From Victivallales bacterium (lineage in GTDB: Bacteria; Verrucomicrobiota; Lentisphaeria; Oligosphaerales; Oligosphaeraceae): 64,000 bases of DNA. The notes under the pieces are model-generated. The model was not told where the DNA came from. It saw only the letters and a list, made by a program, of their open reading frames with translations, and made no database searches. Where the stretch lies: the NCBI GenBank assembly GCA_017535315.1, contig JAFXUD010000049.1, positions 124,001-188,000 on the forward strand, written 5' to 3'. Below, piece by piece: positions 2,644 through 34,676 of this stretch; the first letter of the stretch is position 1; each line of letters starts with the position of its first letter. The position numbers and the translations under genes are program-made.

Positions 2644-3750
2644 TCATGGTGTGCCGAAGACCCGTTTGATGTCCTCTAGATAACCGTAACCATGTAGTGA
2701 ATCGGGTTCCAGGTAGCTTGTTTCCGTCCATTCATTCCAGCTGTTGATGGTGACAAGCGGGGCCTGTTTGGGGTGAGCGAGCACATAGTTCTTCGCCATG
2801 CGCAAGGCGTACTCGAATGCTTCGGGGGTATTCTCCTGGCAACGGTAGTCACGGAAGCGGCGGAAGCGCGGATTGTTGTCCCAGCCGATGGAGACGTGCG
2901 GGAAATAGGGCATGGGGTAGTTGGAGTCAATCCTTTCCCATTCGGCTTGGACATCTGCCAATATCTCTCGATATGGACGGTTCATGTTCGTGAAGTGTGC
3001 GAATTGGTAGTGGGTGATGCTGTCGAAGGCGAGGGCGTCGAACTGGGCGCGTGAGAGTCCGCCCTGCGCATCGACGCCGCTGAGGTTGGTGCCATTCTTG
3101 CGCCAGGCAGTCGCCTGCAGGTGAAGGCCTGGGAAGCCCGCTTTCACGGTTTCATCGCGGAACCAGTCAAGAGCCTTTCTGGCGGCTTCCGCACCACCCA
3201 GACCATCCAGCAGGTTGCCCAGCTCGTAAATCATGAAGACGGGCCTGCCGTCGATTTTGTAGTAGTTGGGCTGCGAGAAGTATTTTTCGATGACGCGGTG
3301 GCAGATGATTTCAAACTGCGTGCGGTTAACGGCACCACCCCAGATCACGGTCGAGCCATAATCGTCGGAGAGGTTGATGTTCCAGACGTTGTTGGCGTCG
3401 TGGTTGGCCCACATGAGGTAGAAGGAGAGCCTGGAGTTGTTCTTGGCCTTGAGGAAACCGTTGTCAAGACACTGCTCCAGAAAGGGGCGGTTGTCAAACC
3501 AGTACCAGTCGTAGATGAAGACGTTGACGCCATGATCCGCAGCAGCGTCAATCTCCATCTGCATCACATACGGGTCTGCCTCATTGACATATCCCCAGAG
3601 CGGAGTACGGTGCCAGTAGTCGGAGACGGCATTGAAGTTCTTGACGGACTGCCATTCGCCAATGCCTTCTGGCCAGAACATTCGCGAGCGCGGTTCGTCG
3701 CCTGTATAGGATGGCCATACAAAGGCCGCTACATCTATGGGGGTGGGCAT
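2644..3750 (-). CDS. WbsX/GH99-like glycan-active protein
   Basis: This is a 368-residue protein of the WbsX-like family, related in fold to GH99 endo-mannosidases (family knowledge; substrate unknown). Visible signatures are 'IYDWYW' (79-84), 'MWANHD' (113-118) and a C-terminal 'NSWNEWTETSYLEP' (about 336-349), whose acidic residues suit an (alpha/beta)8 active site. There is no signal peptide, so it is probably cytoplasmic. The ATG at 3750 was chosen because AAGGAG lies just upstream; the frame stays open into the repeat array behind it, but that part encodes only repeat-derived peptide. A second member lies at 53450-55063. Confidence 0.85.
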   Translation of the reverse strand: MPTPIDVAAFVWPSYTGDEPRSRMFWPEGIGEWQSVKNFNAVSDYWHRTPLWGYVNEADPYVMQMEIDAAADHGVNVFIYDWYWFDNRPFLEQCLDNGFLKAKNNSRLSFYLMWANHDANNVWNINLSDDYGSTVIWGGAVNRTQFEIICHRVIEKYFSQPNYYKIDGRPVFMIYELGNLLDGLGGAEAARKALDWFRDETVKAGFPGLHLQATAWRKNGTNLSGVDAQGGLSRAQFDALAFDSITHYQFAHFTNMNRPYREILADVQAEWERIDSNYPMPYFPHVSIGWDNNPRFRRFRDYRCQENTPEAFEYALRMAKNYVLAHPKQAPLVTINSWNEWTETSYLEPDSLHGYGYLEDIKRVFGTP

Positions 3751-3769
3751 GGTTTTCTCCTTTTTTGTC

Positions 3770-4371
3770 GCCGCGCTGAAGCGCTGCGCACAGGACAGGC
3801 CCTTAGGCCAAAGGACGGGGGGCTGGCGCCCCCCGCGCCCCCCTGTGTGGCAGGCTGAAGCGCTGCGCACAGGACTGGCCCTTAGGCCAAAGGACGGGGG
3901 GCTGGCGCCCCCCGCGCCCCCTGCCGCCGCGCTGAAGCGCTGCGCACAGGACAGGCCCTTAGGCCAAAGGACGGGGGGCTGGCGCCCCCCGCGCCCCTGC
4001 CGCCGCGCTGAAGCGCGGCGCACAGGACAGGCCCTTAGGCCAAAGGACGGGGGGCTGGCGCCCCCCGCGCCCCCTGCCGCCGCGCTGAAGCACTGCGCAT
4101 AGGACAGGTCTTTAGGCCAAAGGACGGGGGGCTGGCGCCCCCCGCGCCCCTTGCTGCCACGCTGAAGCGCGGCACACAGGACAGGCTTAGGGCAAAGGAC
4201 GGGGGCTGAGAGCCCCCGCGCCCCCTGCTGCCGCGCTGAAGCGCTGCGCACAGGGCAGGCCTTTAGGCGAAAGGACGGGTGGCTGCGCCCCCGCGCCCCC
4301 TGCTGCTGCGTAGAAGCGCGGCGCACAGAGCAGGCCCTTAGGACAACGGACGGGGCCTGATTCCCCTCGCT
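3770..4371. repeat. Tandem array of eight ~76-bp GC-rich palindromic units
   Basis: Unit starts are near 3770, 3848, 3926, 4002, 4079, 4156, 4230 and 4305; the last unit is degenerate. Each unit carries up to three self-complementary motifs: gcgctgaagcgc, ggcccttaggcc and ggggggctggcgcccccc. The array fills the whole gap between the DUF1343 stop (4373) and the ribosome binding site of the WbsX-like gene. The open frame across it on the minus strand is a by-product of the repeat. Confidence 0.95.
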
Positions 4372-4372
4372 C

Positions 4373-5494
4373 TTACTGGTGGTATAGCCAGTATTGCCTG
4401 GTTGCTTCTAGGAAGACAGTGGATTGGGTGTTGGCGCGGGCGATGAGTTGCTGGATGGTCTCTTGGTCTGCGCGGTAGGTGGTATCGCCGAGGAGCCTGT
4501 CAAGGGCGTTGTTCATTTTTATTTCAGGGTATTGCTGCCGAATGGCATCGAGGAGGTGGAGGCCTGCCTCGAAGGGGCGGAAGCTATTTTTATCAGTGAT
4601 GTGGAGCTGGATGCCGTGGCAAAGCTCGCCTTGGTGCTTGCTGAAGGTCGGGGTGAAGTGGACCGCGCGCCATAGAATACCTGGCAACTGGATGGCGTTC
4701 AGCTCTTTTGCGAGGCGGGTGGCGTCCAGCTGCGGGGCTCCGATGAGCTCAAAGGGATGGGTGGTTCCACGTCCTTCAGATAGGTCGGTCCCCTCGAAGA
4801 GGCAGGTGCCGATATAGACCAGTGCGCTCTCCAGCGTGGGGATGTTGGGGGAGGGCATAATCCACGGCAGGCCAGTTTCATCGTAAAGCATGGAACGATT
4901 CCAGCCAAGACAGGGGACGACGTTCAGTTCGCAACCGATGTGCTGCGTGTCGTTGATGTAGCGAGCAAACTCGCCGACTGTCAGCCCGTAGCGCGACGGA
5001 ATGGGGTATTCACCCACGAAGGAGTGGAGAACTGGATTCAGGAGGATGCCTTCGGTAGTATCGCCGCCAAGTGGATTCACCCTGTCGAGGATTGTCACAG
5101 GGATGCCAGCCTTCGTGCACTCCTCCATTGCATACGCGAGAGTATAGATGTAGGTGTAGAATCGAGCCCCCACATCCTGGATGTCATAGACCATCATCTC
5201 AATGCCGTCAAGCATCTCTGGCGTGGGACGGCGGGTCTTGCCGTAGAGGCTGAAGCAACGCACGCCAAGCTCCTCGTCGTATTCGGCTTGCTGGACACCG
5301 ATGCCAGCCTGCTGGTCACCGCGGATTCCATGCTCGGGGCCATAGACGGCGCAGAGGTCATAGTCGGCCTTCAGGATTTCCGCCGTGGAGCGGAGCATCG
5401 CGTTCATGCCCGTGGGATTCGTGATGAGGCCCAGTTTCTTGCCCTTCAGGATGGCGAGGGCTTCCGTGTTGTCAATTCCATTCAGCGTCTTCAT
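4373..5494 (-). CDS. DUF1343 protein, NamZ-like exo-N-acetylmuramidase
   Basis: This 373-residue member of the DUF1343 family (GH171) has characterised relatives (NamZ) that release N-acetylmuramic acid from peptidoglycan fragments. Conserved features are 'YGPEHGIRGD' (51-60), 'YDIQDVGARFYTYIYT' (103-118), 'DRVNPLGG' and 'MPSPNIPT'. There is no signal peptide, so a cytoplasmic recycling role is likely (inference). The ATG at 5494 is only two bases past the TGA of the upstream gene, which suggests translational coupling. A longer in-frame extension exists, but it would overlap the upstream gene by more than 150 bases. Confidence 0.88.
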   Translation of the reverse strand: MKTLNGIDNTEALAILKGKKLGLITNPTGMNAMLRSTAEILKADYDLCAVYGPEHGIRGDQQAGIGVQQAEYDEELGVRCFSLYGKTRRPTPEMLDGIEMMVYDIQDVGARFYTYIYTLAYAMEECTKAGIPVTILDRVNPLGGDTTEGILLNPVLHSFVGEYPIPSRYGLTVGEFARYINDTQHIGCELNVVPCLGWNRSMLYDETGLPWIMPSPNIPTLESALVYIGTCLFEGTDLSEGRGTTHPFELIGAPQLDATRLAKELNAIQLPGILWRAVHFTPTFSKHQGELCHGIQLHITDKNSFRPFEAGLHLLDAIRQQYPEIKMNNALDRLLGDTTYRADQETIQQLIARANTQSTVFLEATRQYWLYHQ

Positions 5495-5496
5495 GA

Positions 5497-6297
5497 TCAG
5501 CAGGTGATAGTGTCCAGTTTCTCGCGCATGGCGGAGATGCGGCAATGAGCTAGGCGTGGATAGAAGGGAAACTCGCCTGTTTCGCGCAGGAATTTGCCGT
5601 ATTTGTAGTTGAAAGTTTTGCGTGCGGTGATGAACTGTCCCCAGAAACCGTAGTGCCAACGGACCTCCTGGTTCTTCGGTCCCATGTTGTCAAGCCACTC
5701 TTGGGGGAACCACTCCAGCCAGCGCGGCATACAGTTTAGCCAGGAACTAGTGGCGATGGTGTCGGCCCCATAGGTGTACTCTGCACGGTCAAGCAGCATC
5801 TGGAAGCAGCCTTTCATGTAGGCGGGGTAGTCGAAGAAGGAGTATGGGGTGCAGAAATTGGCGATGTGGAAGCGCAGTGTTTTGGTGTTGAGGTCGAGGG
5901 CAAGCTCGTGGCGAAAGCATCCACAATGGTAACGGGATGCCTCACTGTTGTCGTTGGAGTCTCGTTGAACGCGTGCATCGATGGAGGGCTTGAAGACCTG
6001 AAAGGCCTGCTCCTCGAAGGCAGGCTCGTCATGCCGATTTTCCTGATAGATACGCTCGGCCTGCTGCTCCATTTCCTGCCATTCGGGGTACTCCCAGTGG
6101 AGAGTCTGCGGGTTGATGGTGCCGTTGTTGACATTCGTCTTGCGGTAGATGTCAACGCGCTCGCGGAGGACGTGCTGGAAGGACTCCTCGGGGTGCTTCT
6201 GAAGCCAGTGGTGAATGAACCACAGCATGAGCTTGACTGTGTCGTACAGGTAGGTCCTGTGCTCTTCTAGCGTTTTGGGAGTAAGGGGTGGATTCAT
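5497..6297 (-). CDS. Conserved-looking protein of unknown function, 266 aa
   Basis: I do not recognise the family. The 266-residue protein starts at an ATG with AAGGAA upstream and has no signal peptide or membrane segment. It is rich in aromatic residues, with notable motifs 'YHCGCFRHELALD', 'HIANFCTPYSFF' and 'SSWLNCMPRWLEWFP'. The clustered Cys and His could bind metal (inference). It lies in an operon-like run: amidohydrolase upstream, a 187-base GC-rich repeat gap, this gene, then DUF1343 two bases downstream. The context points to sugar or cell-wall fragment metabolism. Confidence 0.75.
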   Translation of the reverse strand: MNPPLTPKTLEEHRTYLYDTVKLMLWFIHHWLQKHPEESFQHVLRERVDIYRKTNVNNGTINPQTLHWEYPEWQEMEQQAERIYQENRHDEPAFEEQAFQVFKPSIDARVQRDSNDNSEASRYHCGCFRHELALDLNTKTLRFHIANFCTPYSFFDYPAYMKGCFQMLLDRAEYTYGADTIATSSWLNCMPRWLEWFPQEWLDNMGPKNQEVRWHYGFWGQFITARKTFNYKYGKFLRETGEFPFYPRLAHCRISAMREKLDTITC

Positions 6298-6343
6298 TTC
6301 TGGGTTCCTTCTGTTGTGGGGGCAGTGCAAGCACTGGGGCAGG

Positions 6344-6475
6344 CAAAGGACGGGGGGCATATCCCCCCGCGCCCGCCGCAGGATGGGGCGGTGTTGGTAG
6401 GGCACGGACGGGGCCTGCCCCCCGCAGGAAGGGGCGGTGCTGGCAGGGCAACGGACGGGGGCTACGCCCCCTGCG
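6344..6475. repeat. GC-rich palindromic repeat cluster, three short units
   Basis: Three copies of the module ggacgggg...cccc (starting near 6344, 6403 and 6450) carry short inverted repeats such as ggggggcatatcccccc. They match the third palindrome of the 3770-4371 array. As there, the cluster fills the gap between two minus-strand genes. Confidence 0.8.
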
Positions 6476-6484
6476 ATACGTAAG

Positions 6485-7363
6485 CTATTTATACTCTGTC
6501 AGGAGGCGTTCGGCGTTCTTGTGGTAGATCTTCTCAAGGATTTCCTGCGGGAGGTCGAGGGTCTTGATGAAATCCTGGTGCTGTGTGTCGAAGTAGTCTC
6601 TTGCGTAGCAGAACTTGTCCTGGAATTCGTCGATGAACTCTTTGGCGAAGACGGGGTCGCGTTTGAGGGCGCGGCAGCCTGAGCCAGCAGACCAGTCGCA
6701 GTAGAGGTTGGGGTATTTGCGGAGGAGTTCGGGGAGGCGTCCGCCTGGCAGGACTTTGCTGGGGACTGGCGGGTAGTTGGAGGTCTTGTAGAGGTCGTCG
6801 CCAGAGATGTGGATCCAGAAGCCAGGCGCATGGCCGAGGAAGATGGTTTCAGGGCAGGCCTGTAGGATGCGTTCGAGGGTGTCGATGTCGCCGCCCCACC
6901 ATTCGTGCCAGCCAGCGTCGCGGTCGCCGACTTCATCCTGCAGGTGGAGTGTGACGGGCATTTTCAGTTTGCCCGCACGGCGGAAGAGGCGGAGGTATTC
7001 ACGGTCGTCGAACATCATGCGGACTTTGCACTCGCCGCAGGTCTGCGCGCCGTAGATGTCGTGTGCGCCTTGAAGAAGTTCGCAGGCGTCGGGGCGTCGC
7101 GGATCTGGAGCGTAACCGAGGATGAAGCGTTCAGGTGCGCGTTCCTTGTAGCTGATGCAGCGCGAGAAGGGGATGGGACCAGTGGTGGAGCCAAGAATCT
7201 CCGCAGGGACCTTGCTGGCGTAGCTTTTGGAGTAGTCCGTGTAGGCGCATTCCCAGCTCAGAAGCCAGGTCTGTGAGATGTTGTTGGCATCCATGTTGGC
7301 AAGATACTTGTCCAGGTTATGGCCGTGCCAGTCGGGATGGTTGTGAACATCGATGATTTTCAT
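6485..7363 (-). CDS. Amidohydrolase family 2 metal-dependent hydrolase
   Basis: A 292-residue TIM-barrel hydrolase of the amidohydrolase superfamily (Amidohydro_2 type). It begins 'MKIIDVHNHPDWHGH', giving the HxH metal motif (His7, His9). Further candidate ligands are His140 ('VTLHLQDE'), His178 ('FLGHAPGFW') and Asp223 ('YCDWSAGSG'). No signal peptide is seen. The ATG at 7363 has AGAGGT upstream. The substrate cannot be read from the sequence; relatives hydrolyse lactones, amides or decarboxylate. The neighbouring solute-binding protein ends 13 bases upstream, so both may serve uptake and breakdown of the same compound. Confidence 0.85.
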   Translation of the reverse strand: MKIIDVHNHPDWHGHNLDKYLANMDANNISQTWLLSWECAYTDYSKSYASKVPAEILGSTTGPIPFSRCISYKERAPERFILGYAPDPRRPDACELLQGAHDIYGAQTCGECKVRMMFDDREYLRLFRRAGKLKMPVTLHLQDEVGDRDAGWHEWWGGDIDTLERILQACPETIFLGHAPGFWIHISGDDLYKTSNYPPVPSKVLPGGRLPELLRKYPNLYCDWSAGSGCRALKRDPVFAKEFIDEFQDKFCYARDYFDTQHQDFIKTLDLPQEILEKIYHKNAERLLTEYK

Positions 7364-9862: not shown

Positions 9863-9880
9863 TGGTTTATTCTTTTTTTC

Positions 9881-10236
9881 CAAAGGACGGGGGGCTGACG
9901 CCCCCCGCGCCCCCCGCATGGCTGGTGCGCCTGTGGGAGGGCTGATGGGGAACTGAACTCGCTTTGGGGCTGCGCTCCCGCGCCCCCCCGCATGGTTGGC
10001 TGCGCCCCCGCGCCCCCCGCAGGGTTGGGTGCGCCTGTGGGAGGGCTGATGGGGAACTGAACTCGGTTGGGGAAAAGCGGTGCGCTTCGCGCTAAAGCCA
10101 ACGGACGGGGGGCTGACGCCCCCCGCGCCCCCCGCAGGGCTGGGTGCGCCTGTGGGAGGGATGATGGGAAACTGAACTCGCAGGGCTAGGTGCGCCGCAG
10201 GGCTAGTCTGTTCTGTGCCCAGCGCTTCAGTACTGG
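9881..10236. repeat. GC-rich repeat cluster between purM and the UDG-like gene
   Basis: The cluster mixes the ggacggggggctgacgcccccc palindrome (copies near 9885 and 10104) with a separate ~39-bp unit, 'gtgcgcctgtgggaggg' through 'aactgaactcg', repeated at about 9925, 10028 and 10143. Near 10210-10236 is an inverted copy of the module gctgaagcgct...gcacag seen in the 3770-4371 array. No gene is present in this 381-base gap. Confidence 0.85.
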
Positions 10237-10243
10237 GTAAAAA

Positions 10244-29797: not shown

Positions 29798-32700
29798 CTA
29801 TTTGATTCTAACAATCGTATAGGCGGTCAGAAGGTCTTTGGGTAAGGTGGCGGTGATGGTGCCGTCCTGGTTCTGGGTAAAGGCGAGTTTGCGTTCGCCA
29901 GCGAAATCGGGGCTGTAGGCACAGACGCTTTGGCAGGCGGGCGCGGGAATGGTGAAGACAACATCCTCAGCGAGTTGCGGGAAGGCTGGCTCGGGAGCTG
30001 TGTTCTTCATCGTCTCTCCAAATTTGATGTTGGTGCCCGTGGCGTTGAGGAAGTGGATGACCTGGCAGCCGTTCGCCTCGCGCCAGATGGCGGTATAGAC
30101 CTTGTCGGGCAGAGTAACCTGCCAGTAGGAGGCGGGCTTAAGCAGGGTGGCGACGCGTTGGCGGAAATAGGTCTCAAGCAGTGGGTCGGCATTGTATGCC
30201 CACGTCCCGCCAGCGGAGGTTTCGTGTGCGTTGAACTTGGCGGCGAAGGGAACGGCACGGTAGAAGAAACGGCCCTTCCCGTATGGCTTCTCGACACCCA
30301 GCGGGTCGATGGCATATTTTGCGGGGACGAAACTGGCCATGGGTGCTTCGAGCTTTACGACGCCGTTGCCCGTGTCGATGGAGTCAGTCTTCGGCATTGC
30401 ACTGCTGTGCTGCGTGGAGAAGCCCATGATGTCCGCGAAGGGCCAATTGTCGCGTTTCTTGCCGAATTCGTCGAAGTAGCCCGCGACGGTACTCATTTGG
30501 ACGATGCCTCCGCGCTCAGCAAAATCGCGAATTACCTTGATTTCTGCGTCGGAGAGGCAGCCTGAGGCGCATACCATCAGCGCCTTGTACTTGGATAGCT
30601 GCTCAGGAGTTACACTCATGTCGCCGATGAACTCGTAGGGGATGTGGAGGGCTTCAAGTGCCTGCGCAAGCCCGAAGAGCTCGTTGTCGAAGCCGATGAG
30701 CGAGTTCCAGTCGCGGCTGGTGGCAGAGAAAAGGAGGGCAACCTCTGCAATTTGCGTGGCTCCTTGCTTGTTCATGTTGTACGGCGAAGCACCGAACTGC
30801 TCGAACTTGGGCATTTCGGGTGGCTCGTCAACAGTGGAGAGCAGGGCGGCCTGCCCCGTCATGTTACCGACGCACCAGGAGAAGTAGTTGGTCTGCCAAT
30901 CCGAGCAGTAATACCATCCCCAGATGGGGGCCTTATAGGCAATGGAGAGGAGGTTTTTCATCTTGCGGAGAGGCAGGAGCGGGCGCGATGACTGCATCAC
31001 ATTGCGTGTCATCACCTCGGTGCCGAAGAAGTTCATTGCACGCCCGTTCTCAATGAGGCTGGAGCTGGCTTTGTGGCGCGGTAGGGAGCGTGTGAAGCCC
31101 CAGTGGGTGGTGTAGTTGCAGAGCACCAGGTCGGGCTTGACGTCCTCCAGGCGGCGACGCAGTTCAACGAACCAGTTGGTGATCGTGGCGATGTGCCAGT
31201 CGAACCAGCGCTTCATCAGCTCGGAGTCGGGGTTGTTCAAATTCTTGTCCAGTTCGTTGAGAGGGAGTGTCCAGCCAGTGTCGCGGTGGAAGGCCTCTCT
31301 GCAGAACTGGCATGAGCAACCGTGCGACCAGAAGCAGAGTTCGTCGATCTGGAAGCCATCGACGCCCGCTTCGACAAGGCGACGCAGGTAGGCGTAATAT
31401 GTTTCATTGAAGGTGGGATTGCTGGGGCAGAGCTGGAAGGAGGGGAGGTTGTCATTCAGGGCCTTGCCGAGTTCGGGGAGACGTTCTGCGAGTGTGCGGA
31501 GGCCTGCATCGACATTCCATAGTAGGGTGGAGTCGTGGTGGTCGATAAGTTTCATGCCACGTGAATGAGCCTCCTGGGCGATCTTTCCGATGGCGTTGAT
31601 ACCGCGGTCAATGTGGTTGAAATAGGTGTGGCGGCTGTGCATGCCCGAGACCATCATGGCGTTGTAGTTTTTGCCAGCCAGTTCTTGGTCGAGATAGGCT
31701 TTGCGCACCTGCGCGTCTTCCAGTTCACCAAGTGTGGCGGAGTTGGAGAGAACACGGTATATCTGCGCGTTTTTCAGCCAGGCGAGGCTGGGTTGATTTG
31801 GGTCGGGGAGCTTGACGGGGCGTGGCGGTGCCTTGGGAGTGCCGCTGGTTTCAGTGCCTGGCACGGGCATGTCGTAGTTCTCCTTGAAGATTCGGAGGAG
31901 GGCCTGGCGGTCATAGTCGCAGCTTCTGTAGATGTTGGCTGGCTCGTAGCCTCGGCTCACCCAGAAGCCGCGCTGGATGAAGAAGTCCTCGCCATCGCCC
32001 ATAAGCGGCTGCACGCCGATGACGGAAAGAATGTATGACCCCTTGAAGTGGAACTCCGCCTTGCCGCCCGTGATACGGATGGCACGCGAGGAATAAAAGA
32101 CCTTGCGTGGACCGATGGCGGTTTCGGGGGCAAGCTCCACGCCGTTCACATCGACACTGAAGCGGTTGGGGGCGCCCGTGTAGTTGCCCGCACCGACGGT
32201 CAGCACGTAAAAGCCGTCCTGGAAGCCCGTGATGGTGTAGGTGGCATCTGTTCCTGTGACGTTGCTGTAGAGCGCACCCTCATCATAGCCTTTCTGAATG
32301 GTCTGCGTGCCGCTGGTCCAGCCGTATCCGTTTTTCTCGTTGAATGGAAGGTTGCCGTTGGCGTACTGTTTGCCTGTCTTGTCTGCGCCGAAGGCGAGGA
32401 GGCGCGAGGGGAAGAGGTGCTGCGAGTAGGAGTATCGGTCGATGAGGTGGTATTTGCCGTAGTCGGCGAAGGTGCCTTCGCGAATGACCACCTTGCCCCC
32501 CGTAAAACCACCGTAGTTTTTCATCGAGGAGCCTGCCGTGAGAACGTATTTGCCGCCCTCTGCGGGGGTGATGTTCCACACGCCCTTGACGGCACCCGCG
32601 CCGTATCCGCTGCAATAGTCGGTCGCACCGAACGGGTTGAAGTCGAAGATAAGACCATCGGCGGTGAACCAGCGGTAGTTGCCGCCCTTGTAGGCGGTGT

Positions 32701-34499: not shown

Positions 34500-34660
34500 T
34501 CTCCCGTGTCCAATGTCCCGTGTCCAATGTCCCGCGTCCGATGTTCCGCGTCCAATGTCCCGTGTCCAATGTCCCGCGTCCGATGTCCCGCGTCCGATGT
34601 CCCGCGTCCGATGTCCCGCGTCCAATGTCCCGCGTCCAATGTCCCACGTCCGATGTCCCG
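34500..34660. repeat. Array of 23 degenerate heptamers with GTCC core
   Basis: The 161-bp tract is built from 7-mers such as tgtcccg, tgtccaa, cgtccga and cgtccaa, mostly alternating to give a 14-bp period (11.5 copies). It fills the gap between the DUF362 start and the histidine phosphatase stop (34677). Seven is not a multiple of three and all frames give low-complexity peptides, so it is non-coding. Confidence 0.95.
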
Positions 34661-34676
34661 CATCTCCGCTTGCCAC

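Follow-up and report, generated by a model that had tools for sequence, protein, structure and literature searches.

An eight-copy tandem array lies between two minus-strand genes of a Victivallales (Lentisphaerota) bacterium. The window analysed here comprises 64,000 nucleotides (C88:124001-188000) of a genome of 4.9 Mb in 96 contigs. In gene sense, the array is preceded by a NamZ (DUF1343) gene, whose best match among named genomes is found in a Victivallales MAG from goat rumen (52% identity), and followed by a WbsX-like gene. The NamZ stop codon TAA occupies positions 4375-4373, and the array begins immediately 3′ of it and extends to about 3768, where AAAAAAGGAG (3766-3757) and the ATG of WbsX (3750-3748) follow directly. 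The gap between the two genes measures 622 nt and is filled from stop codon to ribosome binding site, just as a sequence-only reading of this DNA had described. All features are listed in Table 1.

Table 1. Features of the NamZ-WbsX gap and its surroundings (positions in the window).
Feature	Position	Strand	Basis
WbsX-like gene, downstream of the array (PF14307, E 4e-41)	2644..3750	(-)	ORF and domain match
Ribosome binding site AAAAAAGGAG of the WbsX-like gene, immediately past the array	3757..3766	(-)	sequence
Tandem array, eight A-B-C composite units of about 77 bp	3769..4371	(-), direction of flanking genes	TRF, patterns, sequence
Module A of unit 1, tag CTGTCCTGTGC and hairpin, loop TTCA	3768..3798	(-)	
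Further A copies of the array	ends at 3877, 3954, 4030, 4107, 4184, 4258, 4333	(-)	
Palindrome B of unit 1, GGCCCTTAGGCC; repeated in other units, degraded in some	3798..3809	none	
Module C of unit 1, GC hairpin, gene-sense end GTCCTTTGG	3808..3841	(-)	
Further C copies	3887-3920, 3964-3997, 4040-4073, 4117-4150, 4193-4224, 4270-4299	(-)	
Decayed C copy	near 4345-4366	(-)	
NamZ / DUF1343 gene, upstream of the array (PF07075, PF20732)	4373..5503	(-)	ORF and domain match
Next upstream gap, with C-type palindromes	6346..6475	(-)	repeat and module search
purM-to-UDG gap: C modules, repeats of about 115 bp, one A element (10208-10238, + strand)	9880..10238	(-)	

A scan of the minus strand between 3600 and 6600 displays neither promoter-like nor terminator-like sites, and no room for a promoter is left between the array and the ribosome binding site of WbsX. 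WbsX is therefore probably transcribed by read-through across the array, which argues against the strong block of transcription that had been considered as one of its effects.

Across the WbsX gene from the array, at 2440-2600, the window holds a dispersed element of about 160 bp with at least 40 copies in the genome (88-91% identity). By eye this element resembles the palindromes that surround one Y1 transposase gene, located at C78:90597 (L099), and because of this likeness it is perhaps a RAYT-linked REPIN. A minisatellite of 14 bp (TCCCGCGTCCAATG) is present in 11.4 copies at 34502-34661 (TRF).

Units and modules of the array

TRF analysis yields 7.7 copies with a period of 77 and 88% matches (3769-4355). 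Patterns for the parts A, B and C of the unit match seven times each in the window at up to 3 mismatches and about zero times in dinucleotide shuffles, which together with the TRF result confirms the array as first described. In the case of C, five of the seven matches lie within the array and two elsewhere in the window. A CRISPR array was rejected because the units are contiguous and have no unique spacers, a known structured RNA because only two tRNAs match Rfam in the whole window, and an intrinsic terminator because no T run follows the hairpins of the array and 3600-6600 shows no such site on the minus strand.

Individual units are 74-79 bp long, contiguous and, unit 8 excepted, 82-97% alike, with units 3 and 4 sharing 97% identity. 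Unit 8, which adjoins the NamZ stop codon, shares 62-68% with the others, and as the most diverged unit it suggests that the NamZ end may be the oldest part of the array. Intact units carry the palindromes CGCCGCGCTGAAGCGCGGCG (A), GGCCCTTAGGCC (B) and GGGGGGCTGGCGCCCCCC (C), where A shows one mismatched pair in several units. Of the up to three inverted repeats per unit originally described, all three are present in intact units, whereas the palindromes are degraded in units 6-8.

Module A opens with the 11-nt tag CTGTYCTGTGC, behind which comes a hairpin with 7-8 bp in its stem and TTYA as its loop, and module C reads GGGGCGC-GGGGGGC-loop-GCCCCCC-GTCCTTTG in gene sense. All eight A and C modules of the array share one orientation. 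The two are dispersed in many gene gaps of the genome and each also occurs alone, and A directly followed by C recurs at C33:84957-85128. Judged by its sequence, the unit is a mosaic of two families that are dispersed in the genome (A and C) with B at the junction, where B looks like the joint of the C end and the A tag.

The RNA fold of the 622-nt gap has a free energy of -400.7 kcal/mol (z = -6.3 versus shuffles), and in a single intact unit A and C each form a hairpin, with B closing the structure. The minimum-energy fold of the gap differs from the plain chain of up to two dozen hairpins that had been predicted, in that some A modules pair across units.

Distribution, covariation and turnover of module A

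The exact tag is present in 38 copies in 1.2 Mb, of which 35 are intergenic; seven permuted tags yield 0, 0, 0, 0, 1, 1 and 4 matches in 1.2 Mb, all of them in genes. In-gene matches of a loose tag search (2 mismatches) equalled the control background, and stricter criteria were used for this reason. A pattern fixing the tag and three loop letters only, with pairing left free, retrieves 65 A copies in this genome and 61 in the sister species G002, while the reversed control retrieves 0. Strict A elements number 58 in this genome, 62 in G002, 1 in G001, a further member of the genus, and 0 in 57 other genomes (family to class), and are confined to this genus among the 60 genomes examined. Module A is therewith a high-copy element (58-65 strict copies here, about 60 in G002, more by relaxed count), at a strict count below the more than 100 copies that are usual for REPs. 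The statistics were computed over about 1.6 Mb from this genome and 0.39 Mb from G002; the G002 contigs were picked for carrying A, and copy density there is not a sample.

The 106 distinct A stems from the two species show 79.6% Watson-Crick pairs at seven core positions, as compared to 51.6 +/- 1.4% in column shuffles, which ignore relatedness among copies, and 19-38% in shifted registers. All seven core pairs are formed in 53 of the 106 stems. The stems are highly varied beside a constant tag and loop, and this variation is compensatory. With symmetric filters, G-T outnumbers A-C by 64 to 41 (p = 0.03 overall; antisense elements 21 versus 16, not significant). The conservation of the A hairpins could equally reflect an RNA function or a constraint at the DNA level.

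Gaps with A elements amount to 98 in the two species: 81 codirectional, 14 convergent and 3 divergent, as called by a simple gene finder, where 14.6 divergent gaps are expected (p = 1.4e-4). An A element lies at most 15 nt from the upstream stop codon in 39 of the 81 codirectional gaps. These gaps hold A in gene sense only (44), in antisense only (19) or in both orientations (18; p = 0.002), and the orientation of A shows no trend with GC skew. When the two modules were pooled in a first analysis of 1.2 Mb, 26 codirectional, 4 convergent and 0 divergent gaps held A or C, and of 80 A/C module matches 67 lie in gaps, 12 at contig ends and 1 partly in a gene. Like REPs, module A is predominantly extragenic and located between codirectional or convergent genes near their 3′ ends. 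A random location of the family, which was to have counted against the RNA roles proposed for the array, is not what these gaps show: A is tied to gene 3′ ends and avoids divergent gaps.

Among A neighbours, head-to-tail tandem pairs dominate (47 of 69). A-tag tandem arrays are common in the genus, with units of 35-77 bp in this genome and 27-43 bp in G002. Some A-type elements are found in coding sequences: dnaX (DNA polymerase III gamma/tau) of G002 carries six tandem in-frame A-type elements, which encode TCSVPAASAAGEA-like linker repeats (L170:2191-2436), and a gene for 1222 amino acids holds two in-frame A elements (L113:16520-16588, corresponding to C82:136520-136588) between a SIS-type N-terminal domain and DUF6259.

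Among 40 gaps that are orthologous in this genome and in G002, 12 hold A in at least one species. By a strict criterion, 11 of them hold it in one species only and 1 in both. At C78:47158 and C82:78345, both among the 11, A-like copies are kept in the other species as judged by eye; since at least two of the 11 keep such copies, the true single-species fraction is estimated to be somewhat below 11/12. A clean case is C82:132796, where two A elements follow right after the stop codon in G002 and none is present in this genome. In the purM-UDG gap, G002 has a different array of three copies of an 81-bp unit, between genes that are 81-88% identical. Gap contents thus turn over fast while the gaps persist, and because of this turnover a finely evolved setting for the NamZ/WbsX gene pair appears unlikely. 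An orthologue of the NamZ-WbsX gap was not found in G001 or G002, nor was an empty site for the array: the only orthologous contig, from G002, ends before it, at window position ~7697.

Further repeats were observed in the same genome. C29:52233-52582 and C33:1-363 are C-type palindrome arrays with 66-bp units at contig ends; since the two are 89% alike and both end contigs, such arrays probably break the assembly. A MITE-like element with the ends GAGGTAATTTCAAAAC.../...TAGTTTTGAAATTACCTC is located at C78:25015-25309, 30780-31087 and 131863-132118, plus shorter forms; it is present in this genome and absent from the orthologous G002 gaps. C78:216422-218126 contains a CRISPR-like array with the repeat CTCAAACAGCACCCTTTAACCGAAAGGTGATTGAGAC and spacers of about 38-40 bp.

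Relation to known REP and BIME systems

Most described REPs are tagged with GTAG or CGTC and are located close to 3′ ends, in gaps of unidirectional and convergent genes; the CGTC families have no linked transposase (PMC3733652). With GTAG REPs, module A shares the small tagged hairpin, the mostly intergenic location close to 3′ ends in codirectional or convergent gaps, the compensatory variation of the stem and the occurrence as singles, dimers and clusters (PMC3733652, PMC8266576). However, its tag CTGTYCTGTGC, with TGTG as the last unpaired bases, departs from the GTAG superfamily motif (GTAG, GTRG/GYAG), and the tandem head-to-tail pairs that dominate in A are rare or absent in most GTAG families (PMC3733652). 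GTAG REPs also have a dedicated RAYT gene that the repeats flank. No Y1 transposase gene flanked by A was found at 7 Y1_Tnp loci of three genomes of the genus (two of them 78-85% complete), where only tag-like matches lacking the hairpin occur, and no transposase or other mobiliser was found linked to A or C.

CGTC REPs resemble module A in having no linked transposase, in their placement, and in their hairpin of 8-9 bp with a loop of 4-5 nt, but their stems start with A-T pairs and carry CGTC at one end, and module A differs in both (PMC3733652). Module C has GTCC at the 3′ foot of its hairpin, whereas CGTC REPs carry a 5′ tag. The palindromes of A (30 nt with the tag) and C (about 33 nt) are within the range of about 20-50 nt that characterizes REPs. 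This genome contains three Y1 transposase genes, and other palindromes surround at least two of them. These GTGGGT... families are intergenic hairpin repeats of the same bacterium, as are A and C, but unlike these two modules they flank the Y1 genes, and by eye they have no sequence in common with A or C.

The array as a whole resembles a BIME, being a mosaic of different palindromic units arranged in tandem in a transcribed intergenic gap. BIMEs combine a REP with an inverted REP (PMC8266576), whereas the eight units described here have a single orientation; the array is also unrelated to BIMEs in sequence and joins two different hairpin families. A literature search for the tag string returned unrelated matches, and the main text of the RepRanger paper (PMC12306157) makes no mention of Lentisphaerota or Verrucomicrobia. 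Module A looks like an undescribed REP-type family with its own 11-letter tag, and the best reading of its sequence may be that of a REP-like element with a new type of tag, outside the GTAG and CGTC superfamilies.

Origin and possible effects of the array

We regard it as probable, though by no means certain, that a composite REP-type element built from the dispersed A and C hairpins was amplified in tandem into a BIME-like array, including the spread and the RNA effects suggested here. The A and C elements would multiply by a copying process, in which an enzyme might recognise the tag together with the hairpin in single-strand DNA. At the NamZ-WbsX gap, the array would have grown by slippage or unequal exchange, with its oldest part at the NamZ end, and its site may be tolerated because it is presumably transcribed but untranslated. 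As attributed to REPs, its hairpins in the mRNA would protect the NamZ cistron against exonucleases at its 3′ end and would lower the amount of transcript that reaches WbsX. Such effects on NamZ and WbsX would be a by-product more than a tuned switch. A more far-reaching version is put forward tentatively and is rather doubtful at present. Here module A, with its tag, TTYA loop and freely varying stem, would represent a third superfamily of tagged REPs; an enzyme so far not linked to A would copy it within one Victivallales genus by reading tag plus hairpin as single-strand DNA, and the A-B-C composite would be multiplied in tandem as a single element.

Self-copying hairpins might also settle at tolerated sites after stop codons and expand by slippage as selfish or neutral DNA, with no effect on expression that matters. 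The fast turnover, the avoidance of promoters and coding sequence, and the gradient of decay along the array are in line with this explanation; however, from what is generally known of REPs, a transcript with some 19 units' worth of GC hairpins is unlikely to be unaffected by them, and the preference for gene sense is unexpected of strand-blind insertion, even if copying linked to transcription or replication could yield it. We consider this account unlikely on balance. That preference for gene sense, on the other hand, would suit a tuned regulatory leader, in which the eight units set the ratio of NamZ to WbsX via attenuation or differential mRNA stability and selection adjusts the copy number, as would an RNA fold far more stable than shuffles and the exact fit of the array into the gap, up to a good ribosome binding site. 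Yet filling from stop codon to ribosome binding site is equally expected of a tolerated insertion, the same element families are present in many unrelated gaps, orthologous gap contents change between genes that are 80-90% identical, and unit 8 is badly decayed, so that a tuned leader appears improbable.

Strong GC hairpins might instead act as an array of terminators between two transcription units, and T runs do follow 17 of 167 A elements elsewhere, one of them in the convergent gap at C82:114899. In the array itself they are absent, as are terminator-like sites on the minus strand; WbsX would be left without room for a promoter of its own, and A is antisense in about 30% of the codirectional gaps with a single orientation. 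This function, of which a Rho-dependent variant may also be conceived, is therefore very improbable. Least credible of all is a coding array, which would lengthen the WbsX protein in frame at its N-terminus. An open frame does begin at a GTG at 4326, crosses the array and continues into WbsX, and in-frame A elements exist inside some genes of the genus, but GC-rich, stop-poor repeats are open by composition, a good ribosome binding site and an ATG follow directly after the array, and the WbsX domain match begins after the ATG at 3750. Moreover, the unit lengths of 74-79 bp are not divisible by three, so that the reading frame shifts among the encoded repeats.

Arrays of this kind constitute a hazard for annotation, as gene finders extend proteins into them. 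The open frame 3751-4326 passes through the array in frame with WbsX, and a simple gene finder placed the start of WbsX at 3870. With an 11-nt tag unlike GTAG or CGTC, strongly covarying stems, frequent gain and loss between sister species and no linked RAYT, the genus-specific A family offers a way to test how elements of this kind spread and how a long hairpin array, when transcribed, affects the genes next to it.
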